DNA of 64,000 bases from positions 1-64,000 of the forward strand of contig NZ_JAJBZH010000009.1 in assembly GCF_020551945.1 (NCBI RefSeq), given 5' to 3'. The notes beneath the pieces are model-generated. The model was not told the DNA's origin. It saw only the letters and a list, made by a program, of their open reading frames with translations, and made no database searches. Of this stretch, positions 57,758 through 62,935 are shown piece after piece. Numbering within the stretch: the stretch's first letter is position 1; each line of letters starts with the position of its first letter. The DNA is from Cellulosimicrobium marinum (GTDB lineage Bacteria > Actinomycetota > Actinomycetes > Actinomycetales > Cellulomonadaceae). Position numbers and translations under genes: made by a program.

Positions 57758-60208
57758 ATGGCGCGCAAGTCCTCGACACCCTCGCTCGACCCGTCCGAGG
57801 TGCACGAGACGATCGTCGACGTCGACGTCGCCACGGAGATGGAGGGGTCGTTCCTCGAGTACGCCTACTCCGTCATCTACTCGCGCGCCCTGCCCGACGC
57901 GCGCGACGGTCTCAAGCCCGTGCAGCGCCGCATCCTCTACATGATGGCGGACATGGGCCTGCGCCCGGACCGCTCGCACGTGAAGTCCGCGCGCGTCGTG
58001 GGCGAGGTCATGGGCAAGCTGCACCCGCACGGCGACGGCGCGATCTACGACGCGCTCGTGCGCCTCGCGCAGGACTTCTCGCTGCGCCTGCCGCTCGTCG
58101 ACGGGCACGGCAACTTCGGGTCGCTCGACGACGGCCCCGCCGCCTCCCGGTACACCGAGGCGCGGCTCGCGCCCGCCGCGCTCGCCATGACCACGAACCT
58201 CGACGAGGACGTCGTCGACTTCGTCCCCAACTACGACAACAAGCTCACGCAGCCCGAGGTGCTGCCCGCGGCGATCCCGAACCTCCTGGTCAACGGGGCG
58301 TCGGGCATCGCGGTCGGCATGGCGACGAACATGGCGCCGCACAACCTCGTCGAGGTCGTCGCCGCCGCGCGCCACCTCGTCAAGCACCCCGACGCCGACC
58401 TCGACGCGCTCATGCGGTTCGTCCCCGGCCCCGACCTGCCCTCGGGCGGCAAGATCGTCGGCCTCGACGGCATCCGCGACGCCTACCGCACCGGCCGCGG
58501 GTCGTTCCGCACGCGCGCCACCGCCCGCGTGGAGAACCTCACGCCGCGCCGCAAGGGCATCGTCATCACGGAGCTGCCGTACGTCGTCGGCCCGGAGAAG
58601 GTGATCGAGAAGATCGCCGAGGGCGTCAAGGCCAAGAAGATCCAGGGGGTCACCGCGGCGACCGACCTCACGGACCGCGAGCACGGCCTGCGGATCGTCG
58701 TCGAGGTCAAGACGGGGTTCAACCCCGAGGCGGTGCTCGAGCAGCTCTACCGGTACACGCCGCTGGAGGACTCGTTCGGCATCAACAACGTCGCGCTCGT
58801 CGACGGCCAGCCGCGCACCCTCGGGCTGCGCGAGCTGCTCGTCGTGTGGGTCGACCACCGCATCGACGTCGTGCGGCGGCGGTCGCAGCACCGCCTGCGC
58901 AAGCGGTCCGAGCGCCTGCACCTCGTCGACGGCCTCCTCATCGCGATCGTCGACATCGACGAGGTCATCCAGGTGATCCGCTCCTCCGACGACGCCCGGG
59001 CCGCCCGCGAGCGCCTCCAGACCGTGTTCGACCTCTCCGAGCCGCAGTCCGAGTACATCCTCGAGCTGCAGCTGCGCCGCCTGACGAAGTTCTCCCGCAT
59101 CGAGCTCGAGAAGGAGCAGGAGACGCTGCGCCGCGAGATCGCCGAGCTCGAGGAGATCCTCGCCGACGACGCCGTGCTGCGCGGCGTCGTCTCGGCCGAG
59201 ATGGCCGAGGTCGCGAAGACGTACGGCACGCCGCGGCGCACCGTCCTCCTGGAGTCGGCGGGCGCCGCGCCGACGACCACGTCGGCCGTGCCGCTCGAGG
59301 TCGCCGACACCCCGTGCTGGGCCCTGTTCTCCACCACGGGACTGCTCGCCCGCACGAGCGACGACACCGAGCCCGGGCGCACCGGGCCCCGGGCGGCGCA
59401 CGACGCCCTGCGCGCCAGCGTCCGCACGACCGCTCGCGGCGAGATCGGCCTCGTGACGACGCGCGGGCGGATGGTGCGTGTGTCCGTCCTCGACCTGCCC
59501 GCGATCCCGCCGACCGACGGCGCGCCCAGCCTGTCCGGCGGGGTGCCGCTCAGCGAGGTCGTCGCGCTCGAGCCCGGCGAGGAGGCCGTGACCATCGCCT
59601 CGCTCGCCACCGACGCTCCCCCGCTCGCGCTCGGGACCGCGCAGGGTGTCGTCAAGCGCGTCCTGCCCGGTGACGTGCCGAACAACCGCGACGCGTGGGA
59701 GGTCGTCGGCCTCAAGGACGGCGACGTCGTCGTGGGCGCCGCCCCCGCGACCGACACCGACGAGGTCGTGTTCGTCAGCTCCGACGCGAGCCTGCTGCAC
59801 TTCGACGCGAGCGCCGTCCGGCCCCAGGGCCGTGCGGCGGGCGGCATGGCGGGCATCCGGTTGGGTGCCGGCCAGCGCGTCGTGTTCTTCGGCGTCGTCC
59901 CGGCCGACGTGCGCGACCTCGGCGTCGTCGTCACGGTCGCCGGGTCGTCCGCGGCGCTGCCCGGGACCCAGACCGGCGCCGCGAAGGTCACCCCGTACGA
60001 GCTGTACCCGGGCAAGGGCCGCGGCACCGGCGGCGTGCGCGCGCACCGCTTCCTCAAGGGCGAGGACACCCTCATCCTCGCCTGGGTCGGGCAGGGTCCC
60101 GCCCGCGCCTCGGGGTCCGGGGGCCAGGTCGCCGAGCTGCCCGAGGCCGACCAGCGCCGCGACGGGTCCGGCACGCCGCTCGCCGGTCCGGTCGTCGCCG
60201 TCGGCTGA
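57758..60208 (+). CDS. parC: DNA gyrase/topoisomerase IV subunit A (ParC-like)
   Basis: An 816-residue type IIA topoisomerase A subunit. [20 protein letters not shown] is near residue 47, the quinolone-resistance region [13 protein letters not shown] at about 90-102, and the DNA-cleaving tyrosine in [11 protein letters not shown] near residue 132. The C-terminal beta-pinwheel contains only a degenerate GyrA-box ([10 protein letters not shown], about 689-698). That favours the second, ParC-like enzyme of actinobacteria over GyrA itself. The matching B subunit is not in the window. GGCAGGAG lies upstream of the ATG. Confidence 0.88.
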
Positions 60209-60377: not shown

Positions 60378-61238
60378 TCAGAGGTCCTTCAGGCTGGAGT
60401 CGCGCTGAGGCTGGATCACTGCCGAGGCGGCCACCACCAGGGAGTGCAGCGCTGGCAGGTCCCGCACCCGCTCGTGCTCGTGGCGCTTGCTGATGAGCTT
60501 CACGTGCGCCTTCTCGACGCGCTGGTCCTTCGAGTCACGGTAGTGGACGTGGATCTCCCACAGCGCGGGCGCCCCGTCGACCTCGACCGAGAAGTTCCTG
60601 GTGAAGGGACCTGTCGGGTTCCCCTTCTTCTTCGCCTTCTCGTCCTGGGTCCGGAAGGTCAGGGTGTGCGCGAGGCCGCCGATGATCGTGTCGGTGTGCC
60701 AGTCCGTCAGGGTCCGGCCTGCTCCGGGCTGTCCCGTGGCGCGGAGATGGTCGATCTGCGCCTGCCTGATCGCGGCCAGCTCCTGCTGCATCTCCTTCTC
60801 CATCTTGGCCCGGATGGCACCGGCCTTCACCGGGACGTCCTTGCCGTCCTTGTACTTCTTCGTCATGGCGAGGAACTCGGCCCAGGTGACGTTCTGCACC
60901 AGGCTCTGGAACTGAGCATGGCTCTGGCACCACCGCGTGACGAGAAGGATCGCGCCGTCGACCGCTGCGCCCGACGCCCCCCACGTCCGCGGGATGAGGC
61001 TGGCGTAGTCCAGCTCCTCGCTGCGCGTCGGGACGTACGCGCGCTGCACGGCCGTGCTGACCGCCCGGTTCCCGGCGCTTGCCTGGACCTGCAGCATCGC
61101 GTCACGTCCGCCGTCCTGCGGGCGGAGTACGGCAGGTACGTGTGTCGTGGCTCGAGCGGCACCCGGACGAGGACGTGCCCCCGACCGACGGAGCACAGGC
61201 GCGGAATCAGCGCGGACCTCGTGGTGCAGGTGGCTCAT
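60378..61238 (-). CDS. Orphan protein with eCIS-cargo-like N-terminal tag
   Basis: This 286-residue protein is of unknown function. The N-terminus (MSHLHHEVRADSAP, then Pro/Arg-rich, then MLQVQASAGNRAVSTAVQR at residues 48-66) resembles the leader of many actinobacterial proteins linked to contractile injection systems (LQ...AGN.AV..L pattern). Residues 67-120 are helical. Next comes a Lys-rich, Gln-rich helix (MEKEMQQELAAIRQAQIDHL). The C-terminal beta-rich domain has conserved-looking residues DWHTDTIIGG, WEIHVHYRDS and KRHEHERVRDL. GC is 60-65% in places against about 74% around it. No sheath, baseplate or DUF4157 gene is near. ATG chosen over a GTG inside an upstream palindrome. Confidence 0.6.
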   Translation of the reverse strand: MSHLHHEVRADSAPVLRRSGARPRPGAARATTHVPAVLRPQDGGRDAMLQVQASAGNRAVSTAVQRAYVPTRSEELDYASLIPRTWGASGAAVDGAILLVTRWCQSHAQFQSLVQNVTWAEFLAMTKKYKDGKDVPVKAGAIRAKMEKEMQQELAAIRQAQIDHLRATGQPGAGRTLTDWHTDTIIGGLAHTLTFRTQDEKAKKKGNPTGPFTRNFSVEVDGAPALWEIHVHYRDSKDQRVEKAHVKLISKRHEHERVRDLPALHSLVVAASAVIQPQRDSSLKDL

Positions 61239-61246
61239 GCTCCATC

Positions 61247-61262
61247 GTGCGACCGGTCGCAC
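61247..61262. promoter_or_regulatory. Perfect 16-bp palindrome upstream of the orphan gene
   Basis: GTGCGACCGGTCGCAC is a perfect dyad, beginning nine bases before the ATG at 61238. A second inverted repeat, GTGCCCG-AA-CGGGCAC, stands at 61273-61288. Either may be an operator; the second may instead terminate the upstream gene. Confidence 0.45.
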
Positions 61263-61341
61263 CCCGCACGGTGTGCCCGAACGGGCACGACGGAGCGCAG
61301 CGATCAGTTCCCCGACCGCCCGAGCCCGTGGACGACCCGTC

Positions 61342-62790
61342 TCAGGCGTTCGCGAGCTCGCGGTCGTCCGTCACGGGCTTCTGGTCCTCGTAGCGACGGA
61401 CGACCCGGCTGACGGTCGACCGCGACGCCGAGACCTGCTCGGCGATCTCCCGCTGGTTGAGGCCCGTGCGCGCCAGCTCGACGATGCGGCGGTCGCGCTC
61501 CGCGGTCGGGTCGTCGGCGGGGTTCGCGTCGGCGGCGCGGTCCACGTCGTCAGTGCGGTCCGCGTCAGTGAGGCTGTCGACGCGGGCCGGGGCGCCCGGC
61601 ACGCCGTCCACGGGGCGAGCCAGGTCGAAGACCTCCACCCGTCGGGTGTGACCCGTCACCGCCGGCGGCTCCACGACCCGCGCCGTGTCGGCGACCTCCG
61701 GGGTCGGCTGGTCCCACGGGAGCGGCCCGGTGCGCCGTCCGAACACCTCCTTCACGCGCGCCTCGAGGTTCGGCAGCGCCTCGAAGGCGGTCTCCGGCAC
61801 GTACGGCTTCTCCTCCGGCTCGGTGGCCGTGCCCTCGACGGCAGGTGTCTCGACGGCAGGCGCCTCGACGACAGCGGTCCCGACAGCAGGGGTCTCGACG
61901 GCGAGCACCGCGGGCCGCACCTCGGCGGCGCGGTACTCGACCTCCCGCGTCTCGGCGTCACGCGCAGGCTCCGGCGCGTGAGCCGGGCGAGGCGCGACCG
62001 GCGTCCCCGAGCGCGCCGCGCTCGACGAGGGCGTGGCCGCGGCCGTCTCGGCCCGTCCCCGGGCGGTGCCGCGCTTGACGGAGCTCGCCCCGATGAGGTC
62101 GAGCCGCGTGCCGTGGCGCTCTGCCGCCTCCAGACGGTCGACCCAGACCTGCATGCGGCGCTCGAAGTCCTCGACGGTCAGCAGCTTGAGGGCGCCGTCG
62201 CGCGCTGCGCGCTGTCGCTGGTGGGCGGCCCGGACCTTGCGCAGGTCCGCCGACGAACCCGAGCTGTCCGCCCGCGCGTCGCGCCACTGCTCCAGTGCGG
62301 TGACGTAGGCGTGGACCCGCGTCTCACGGCGACGCTCGTCGAGGGTGTGCCCCGTGACCATGTGCCGCTCTCCCACGAGCGCGAGGTGCCACATCAGGGC
62401 CGCGACCAGCGGCGGGACGAACCGGAACACGACCATGTACGGGGTGCTCTCGGTCGGCACGGCGATCTCGTGGAGCGCCGCGAACACGCCCGACGTCCCG
62501 GACAGCACCCAGGTCAGCGTGAGGAGCACGCCGTAGGGACGCCCCTCCAGCGCCGCGTTGCGGGCCATGAGCGCCACGGCGACGAGGCTGACCTCGAGGA
62601 AGCCCGCCAGGCCGTACGCCTCGAGCGGCGACATGTGCGCGACCTCGAGACCGAACAGGACCATGCCGCTGTACGCCAGCGCGGTCGCGATCGTCGCCGC
62701 GACGATCACCGCGACCATCGGGAGGTGGCGCCCCCGGTAGCGCACCTGCCGCGGTGATCCGCCCGATCCGGTCTGGTCCTGCTGTGTCAC
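61342..62790 (-). CDS. DUF2637-like membrane protein fused to a C-terminal helix-turn-helix
   Basis: A 482-residue protein. Four membrane helices occupy about residues 25-137; they include GLAGFLEVSLVAVALMARNA and VFRFVPPLVAALMWHLAL, like the DUF2637/Spd proteins of actinobacterial plasmids and integrative elements. A long cytosolic region follows: a charged helical part (about 150-235), then low-complexity Ala/Glu/Val/Thr repeats (about 260-345). The last 50 residues hold a resolvase-type HTH: ELARTGLNQREIAEQVSAS followed by RSTVSRVV. The GTG has a GGAGG site five bases upstream, which decides the start. A membrane-tethered DNA-binding role is inferred. Confidence 0.7.
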   Translation of the reverse strand: MTQQDQTGSGGSPRQVRYRGRHLPMVAVIVAATIATALAYSGMVLFGLEVAHMSPLEAYGLAGFLEVSLVAVALMARNAALEGRPYGVLLTLTWVLSGTSGVFAALHEIAVPTESTPYMVVFRFVPPLVAALMWHLALVGERHMVTGHTLDERRRETRVHAYVTALEQWRDARADSSGSSADLRKVRAAHQRQRAARDGALKLLTVEDFERRMQVWVDRLEAAERHGTRLDLIGASSVKRGTARGRAETAAATPSSSAARSGTPVAPRPAHAPEPARDAETREVEYRAAEVRPAVLAVETPAVGTAVVEAPAVETPAVEGTATEPEEKPYVPETAFEALPNLEARVKEVFGRRTGPLPWDQPTPEVADTARVVEPPAVTGHTRRVEVFDLARPVDGVPGAPARVDSLTDADRTDDVDRAADANPADDPTAERDRRIVELARTGLNQREIAEQVSASRSTVSRVVRRYEDQKPVTDDRELANA

Positions 62791-62823
62791 GTCGTCCTCC
62801 GAGAAGTGGGGTGGGGCGCACAT

Positions 62824-62852
62824 ATCCCAACACTCAGGACACTCCTCGTCAA
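62824..62852 (-). promoter_or_regulatory. Sigma70-type promoter of the DUF2637-like gene
   Basis: On the minus strand TTGACG (complement of 62847-62852) and TGGGAT (complement of 62824-62829) are separated by exactly 17 bases. Two copies of GAGTGT lie in the spacer. Confidence 0.6.
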
Positions 62853-62935
62853 CGCACCAGAACGCACCGCAACGGGATCGTGAGCACGGCCCCGACGACG
62901 GAGGCGCCGACACGCACGAACGGTCCCGGACAGCA

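Follow-up and report, generated by a model that had tools for sequence, protein, structure and literature searches.

A leader-tagged orphan gene of Cellulosimicrobium marinum encoding a candidate cargo of the resident extracellular contractile injection system

Introduction

In the studies considered here, searches for the cargos of extracellular contractile injection systems (eCISs) looked mainly beside the machine itself or via the DUF4157 domain, which Geller et al. (2021; PMC8213781) connect with toxins. Here we report a gene of Cellulosimicrobium marinum that carries an eCIS-type leader on a contig without a sheath, cap or eCIS_core match, and whose product is likely to be a trans-encoded cargo (effector) of the eCIS of this cell. 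The gene lies on the minus strand at positions 60378..61238 of a stretch of 64,000 nucleotides (positions 1–64000 of contig NZ_JAJBZH010000009.1, here C14; hereafter the window) and encodes 286 residues from an ATG at 61238, or 294 residues if a GTG at 61262 is used. The genome (G000) comprises 3.83 Mb in 14 contigs.

The gene resembles the eCIS-associated toxins (EATs) of Geller et al. (2021) and Danov et al. (2024; PMC11297309) in belonging to an eCIS genome, in sharing its leader with DUF4157 proteins, and in having a C-terminal part that is the presumed effector. Almost all training EATs are located no more than 10 genes from the last core gene, and a Pfam domain is present in every predicted EAT (PMC8213781, PMC11297309), whereas the window gene is unlinked and has no such domain; the screen of Danov et al. 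is unlikely to return it. It has the same N-terminal leader motif as DUF4157/eCIS_core (PF13699) proteins but lacks their DUF4157 domain. The Streptomyces proteins Sle1 and Tme (PMC13277306, PMC11126660) are likewise actinobacterial effectors with a connection to DUF4157 proteins or domains, but they are encoded within the locus of their contractile injection system (CIS) and related to tape-measure proteins, whereas the window protein is short and unlinked. Streptomyces DUF4157 proteins bind both baseplate parts and cargo (PMC13277306, PMC11126660). The payloads of Photorhabdus virulence cassettes (PVC) and of the antifeeding prophage (Afp) carry an N-terminal loading signal, and loading is facilitated by the AAA ATPase Pvc15 (PMC11495950). 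Danov et al. (2024) detected no specific conserved sequence in the PVC and Afp signals and describe signal peptides as generally hydrophilic with a slightly positive N-terminus; unlike those signals, the window leader is a conserved motif. Six exact spellings of this motif were not found in the open-licence literature of PubMed Central, and no unlinked or orphan eCIS effectors or loading motifs appeared in the top-ranked titles and abstract starts (subscription papers and preprints were outside the scope of the search).

Results

The leader follows the pattern [LV]QxxxGN and then VQR, the version of this gene being DAMLQ-VQASAGNRAV-STAVQR. Its motif VQASAGNRAV (61059..61088, minus strand), recognised by shuffle and profile scores, occupies residues 51–60 of the 286-residue form, and the VQR tripeptide that ends the leader (61041..61049, minus strand; residues 64–66) is also found in eCIS-linked zincin-like proteins and in other dispersed leader genes. 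Over the 28 columns aligned with eCIS leaders in model A3 (61041..61124, minus strand), Q, G and N are invariant across all 16 rows. Scored with a profile of 31 leaders from outside the genus, the window leader reached 20.1 bits (E = 2e-8, single protein), which none of 50,000 shuffles of the first 95 residues attained; the profile is not fully independent because its rows stem from places found in the A3 search, and two rows come from G074, where neither cap nor sheath was detected. With the genus model A2, the leader score was matched by 2 of 20,000 shuffles, and motif and VQR occurred together in 3 of 300,000 shuffles.

Among 1,261 open reading frame segments from own-genome loci, some of them picked for their leaders, the leader ranked second (a duplicate in the overlapping locus L005 was set aside), behind a dispersed leader gene on contig C7 and ahead of two eCIS-linked leader proteins; the best segment without a leader scored 4.6 bits. 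The most similar leaders by eye are those of G067 (GNAAVSLAVQR) and G196 (GNRAVTRAVQR), with the cap gene 6 and 3 kb away, respectively. By the out-of-genus profile, the N-terminal leader resembles that of eCIS-linked proteins; its scores in the genus models are weak. A sequence-only reading of the gene had likened its leader to that of proteins found with eCISs, a view supported by these scores and by the class-wide co-occurrence with cap genes given below.

The same genome encodes an eCIS, with its genes at the two ends of contig C1 and matches for sheath, cap and eCIS_core all above the cut-offs; no sheath, cap or eCIS_core match was found on C14. Positions 1–20000 of C1 encode the sheath (PF04984, PF17482), two gp19-type tubes (PF06841), a CIS_tube protein, a VgrG-like hub/spike, gp25, baseplate J and Tail_P2_I, and the opposite end encodes the cap (PF14065), a WHD-AAA ATPase, a zincin-like protein and eCIS_core (PF13699, E = 4e-33). 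Two proteins directly downstream of the AAA gene bear the same leader as the window gene. The claim that no injection system was nearby therefore holds for the window but not for the genome, where the recommended search for sheath and baseplate genes retrieved both, together with further eCIS genes. The location of the gene, on C14 rather than C1, is not the typical (albeit not absolute) one of a cargo in or near the eCIS operon.

Several further features of C1 were recorded. By eye, both ends of the contig carry transposase-like sequence (L003:1-884 and L015:16461-18285), with the eCIS genes on the same strand at both; a terminal overlap between the ends was looked for and not found. Because eCIS genes and transposase-like sequence occur at both ends, either the cluster was split by an insertion sequence-mediated event or the two ends adjoin. 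An eCIS-linked leader protein (L015:10306-11427, plus strand) without Pfam match has, by eye, a zincin-like stretch HAIHEALH...E, and relatives of it are present at the eCIS loci of four further genomes of the genus. A Pro/Ala-rich protein of 922 residues in the eCIS cluster (L003:3576-6344, plus strand) shows, by eye, many [VL]QR tripeptides and LQRTLGDLAL near its N-terminus, and could be a leader-like or a tape-measure-like part. Between eCIS_core and the contig end, HipA-like and small helix-turn-helix (HTH) genes were seen by eye (L015:12023-13646, minus strand).

Within the genus, eCIS_core was found in 5 of 17 genomes and the sheath, searched for in these five only, in all five. Sheath and core are less than about 10 kb apart on one contig in G005, G013 and G014 and on separate contigs in G008. 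The zincin-like and eCIS_core proteins of the five genomes have [LF]QxxxGN in common, to which the zincin-like ones add VQR[AS]. With model A1 (11 rows, window leader left out), all 12 places at E ≤ 1.1e-12 were located at the eCIS loci of these five genomes, 11 of the 12 being rows of the model itself. The weaker matches included leader genes away from the eCIS on G000:C7 (239 residues), G008:C11 and G008:C1, the last with a phosphodiester-glycosidase domain; in G014, a leader gene adjoins the eCIS. Among the weak matches in genomes without eCIS_core, no leader was seen by eye in L032, L034, L035, L046 and lower, a reading that did not include L033 (E = 0.006) or several others. When ten other leader proteins were scanned with Pfam, a single match, to NAGPA phosphodiester glycosidase (E = 2e-6), passed the cut-off, and one to a DNA/RNA endonuclease (E = 1e-4) fell short of it. 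The second unlinked leader gene of the own genome (G000:C7, L058:3720-4439, plus strand; 239 residues) has no Pfam match; the end of its product, YSCQDFV...LL, resembles by eye papain/LRAT-like cysteine enzymes. On another contig of G014 (G014:C13, L025) lie a further, divergent sheath (E = 1.9e-15) and a match to eCIS_core (E = 9e-15), so that this genome probably encodes two systems.

Across the class, 394 genomes were searched with model A3, whose 16 rows include the window leader (1 of 16) and leaders of its own genus, scoring at most 21 candidates per genome. The leader was found in 40 genomes at E ≤ 0.01, a threshold at which about four chance matches are expected over 394 genomes, and 31 of these 40 have a cap gene, compared with 60 of all 394. 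At E ≤ 1e-3, a cap gene accompanied the leader in 29 of 31 genomes (Fisher p = 6e-25), and at E ≤ 1e-4 in 21 of 21 (p = 2e-19); the nine cap-less leader genomes (E ≤ 0.01) also gave no sheath match. A broad occurrence of the leader in genomes without eCIS, which the sequence-only reading had named as evidence against a link, was not observed (cap-less genomes 2 of 31 and 0 of 21 at the two stricter thresholds).

In cap-positive genomes, 54 places carried the leader at E ≤ 1e-3. Of these, 20 had the cap gene no more than 50 kb away and 34 did not; eight of the 34 shared a contig with the cap at a distance of 0.63–4.19 Mb, and the other 26, among them the own genes on C7 and C14, were on a different contig. 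A leader place with no cap gene within 50 kb was present in 17 of 60 cap-positive and 2 of 334 cap-negative genomes (p = 2e-13); without the own genome, the cap-positive count was 16 of 59 (p = 1.2e-12). Sequences were inspected at the best leader places (29 class loci), and a DUF4157-like domain was called with a model from six genus cores. Among the unlinked loci inspected, the domain is present in eight (L092, L096, L097, L099, L104, L111, L112, L113) and absent from seven (L093, L095, L098, L102, L108, L110, L116); the window gene is of the latter, leader-only kind.

The C-terminal part of the protein (60381..61040, minus strand; residues 67–286, 220 residues) has no accepted relatives according to homology searches and a low-confidence structural model. 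The whole protein had no match at E ≤ 10 in Pfam (and thus none to PF13699), NCBIfam, PHROGs, PADLOC or the PDB sequences, which agrees with its initial placement outside known families. No homologue was found at E ≤ 0.001 in 58 relatives, 16 congeners among them, nor did the C-terminal part have a match at E ≤ 0.001 in 395 other genomes of the phylum. Two sets of six 8-residue patterns, a search of low sensitivity, found none in a collection of genome contigs, and none was found among viral contigs (pattern scan) or phages. Plasmid matches to TraJ at E = 4 were taken as chance, as were matches in five of 393 other class genomes (E = 5e-4 to 5e-3, 20–46% identity, 49–113 residues), three of which were from one genus and covered the same stretch at about 20% identity.

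The fold check suggested by the sequence-only reading was run with single-sequence AlphaFold2. The model (mean predicted local distance difference test score 53, predicted template modelling score 0.32) shows helices, five strands and a last helix at low confidence, and Foldseek found no match to it at E ≤ 0.001; with such weak scores and no match, a fold is not claimed. The noted richness in His is not extreme: the His content of 4.9% ranks third among 36 crude gene calls of the window. That the C-terminal part is a small His-dependent enzyme, for example a nuclease, is speculation.

The gene is a single open frame with its stop at 60378. Its G+C content by codon position (0.69/0.48/0.88) is typical of true genes in a G+C-rich genome, and for this reason a spurious reading frame was rejected; the overlapping plus-strand frame has values of 0.82/0.55/0.71. 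In other leader genes, possible in-frame starts precede the motif by about 30–60 residues, with which the ATG at 61238 is consistent. The total G+C content of 68.4%, against a mean of 74.3% (standard deviation 2.8), is the lowest of the 36 gene calls, itself counted, so that the noted drop below the neighbours is real but amounts to about 6 points and not 10.

Convergent to the gene lies a topoisomerase IV/gyrase A-type subunit gene (57758..60208, plus strand; Pfam DNA_topoisoIV, E = 2e-149), and on its other side is a gene with a C-terminal HTH (61342..62913, minus strand). Neither neighbour is a lineage-specific immunity candidate; the HTH gene, being present in 17 of 17 genus genomes, is no dedicated immunity gene. 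The 103-bp gap upstream of the gene contains, as read from the sequence, a perfect 16-bp inverted repeat, GTGCGACCGGTCGCAC (61247..61262), and a second one, GTGCCCG-AA-CGGGCAC (61273..61288); together these tandem repeats (61247–61288) look operator- or terminator-like.

The stops of the two flanking genes are separated by 83 bp in the relative G008 and by 1,133 bp here. In the other 15 genus genomes, no topoisomerase gene was seen in the 1.5 kb examined, and the polarity of the change therefore rests on the wider absence of the gene. Gain in the own lineage is the simplest reading, and transfer, as originally suggested, or recent gain is plausible, given the lack of a match in 16 congeners (E ≤ 0.001) and the close flanks in G008.

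Discussion

The best reading of these data is that the gene is one of at least two in-trans cargos of its genome, recognised via the leader and not via the neighbourhood. Since it shares its tag with eCIS-linked proteins, its product is probably a payload whose gene lies apart from the machine. What is observed comprises the leader, the presence of this leader on eCIS-linked proteins, its class-wide co-occurrence with cap genes and the eCIS genes of the own genome; from these we infer with good reason, at the level of sequence, that the product is an effector, and the same leader marks dispersed genes for candidate payloads across many related bacteria. The sequence-only reading is thus confirmed in part as to what it observed (the gene, its leader and the lack of a known family, but neither a genome-level absence of eCIS nor a 10% difference in GC) and supported in part in its interpretation.

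We infer that the leader would act as a loading signal, that the protein would enter the particle and that its C-terminus would serve as a toxin or modulator. The N-terminal address would consist of the basic stretch, the [LV]QxxxGN helix and VQR, and would be read by the loading apparatus of the eCIS, the most likely recogniser being the AAA ATPase, the eCIS_core (DUF4157) protein, or both. Recognition at the loading stage is suggested by analogy with Pvc15 and the PVC signal peptides and with the Streptomyces DUF4157 proteins, which bind to cargo as well as to parts of the baseplate. The cargo would then be carried in the particle, and its C-terminal 220 residues would be delivered to the target cell and act there.

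A number of observations weigh against this reading. Models built from the genus alone rate the leader weakly (E = 2.07 in one genus-model search), and it was absent at E ≤ 10 from the A1 search of the genus, in which 150 of 203 candidates were scored; its L-to-V and R-to-A changes could point to drift. The N-terminal stretch (61089..61238, minus strand; residues 1–50, presumed to be disordered) is basic, with a net charge of +4, but its charge and hydrophilicity are ordinary for the window: 12 of the 36 gene calls are more hydrophilic and 8 more positively charged over their first 50 residues, so that signal features of the type described by Danov et al. (whose score itself was not computed) fail to single out the protein. 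The eCIS genes of the own genome occupy both ends of C1, each with transposase-like sequence by eye, and the cluster may not be intact. The co-occurrence counts include the own genome and eCIS_core proteins, and the 26 unlinked places on other contigs may be near the cap in fragmented assemblies. At E ≤ 1e-3, 31 of the 60 cap-positive genomes gave no leader, from which it follows that the model spans only part of eCIS diversity or that scoring depth limited detection. Conversely, G074, the only one of the nine cap-less leader genomes that was read, has two neighbouring leader proteins (L114) without detected cap or sheath; they look genuine and exceptions to the pairing thus exist, this pair being a relic or another use of the leader. 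Effector-like C-termini are mostly unproven, as 5 of the 10 scanned leader proteins lack any Pfam match, and with no C-terminal homologue found, evidence of conservation is absent for the window gene as well.

Three other explanations were weighed. The leader might mark structural or assembly parts that dock on eCIS_core or the baseplate, such as tape-measure-like or plug proteins, and not departing payloads, as might be expected from eCIS_core proteins that bear the leader themselves and from Streptomyces DUF4157 proteins that co-purify with baseplate proteins (PMC11126660, PMC13277306). We regard this as unlikely. The C-termini of leader proteins are varied, many leader places are away from the cap gene, and none of 16 congeners, four of them with eCIS_core, yielded a match to the window gene, which makes it unlike a conserved structural part.

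It is quite improbable that the gene is a degenerating former cargo, a transferred leader gene whose loading was lost as leader and cluster drifted. The leader does depart from the family consensus at two positions, and the eCIS lies at two contig ends with transposase-like sequence, but the frame is open over all 294 codons with a coding-type G+C content at third positions, and the invariant Q, G and N as well as VQR are retained. A last and very improbable alternative is that the leader, as a helix motif, has another role, such as a different export route or partner, and that its co-occurrence with eCIS is indirect. The leader proteins of G074 would fit such a role, but all 21 genomes with leaders at E ≤ 1e-4 have a cap, the leader is found in the own genome on two proteins directly downstream of the AAA ATPase gene (the AAA gene was examined in this genome only), and eCIS_core proteins carry it in five genomes of the genus.

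The reading of the gene as an in-trans cargo leads to a broader proposal, for and against which we see the case as evenly balanced: that actinomycete eCISs use [LV]QxxxGN...VQR as a general loading address, that each genome holds a dispersed, lineage-specific arsenal of cargos encoded at a distance from the machine, and that the window gene is one of these, with a new effector domain. If this is true, hidden payload repertoires would be searchable anywhere in a genome by a short leader, and the loading signal of actinobacterial eCISs would become testable via one motif.
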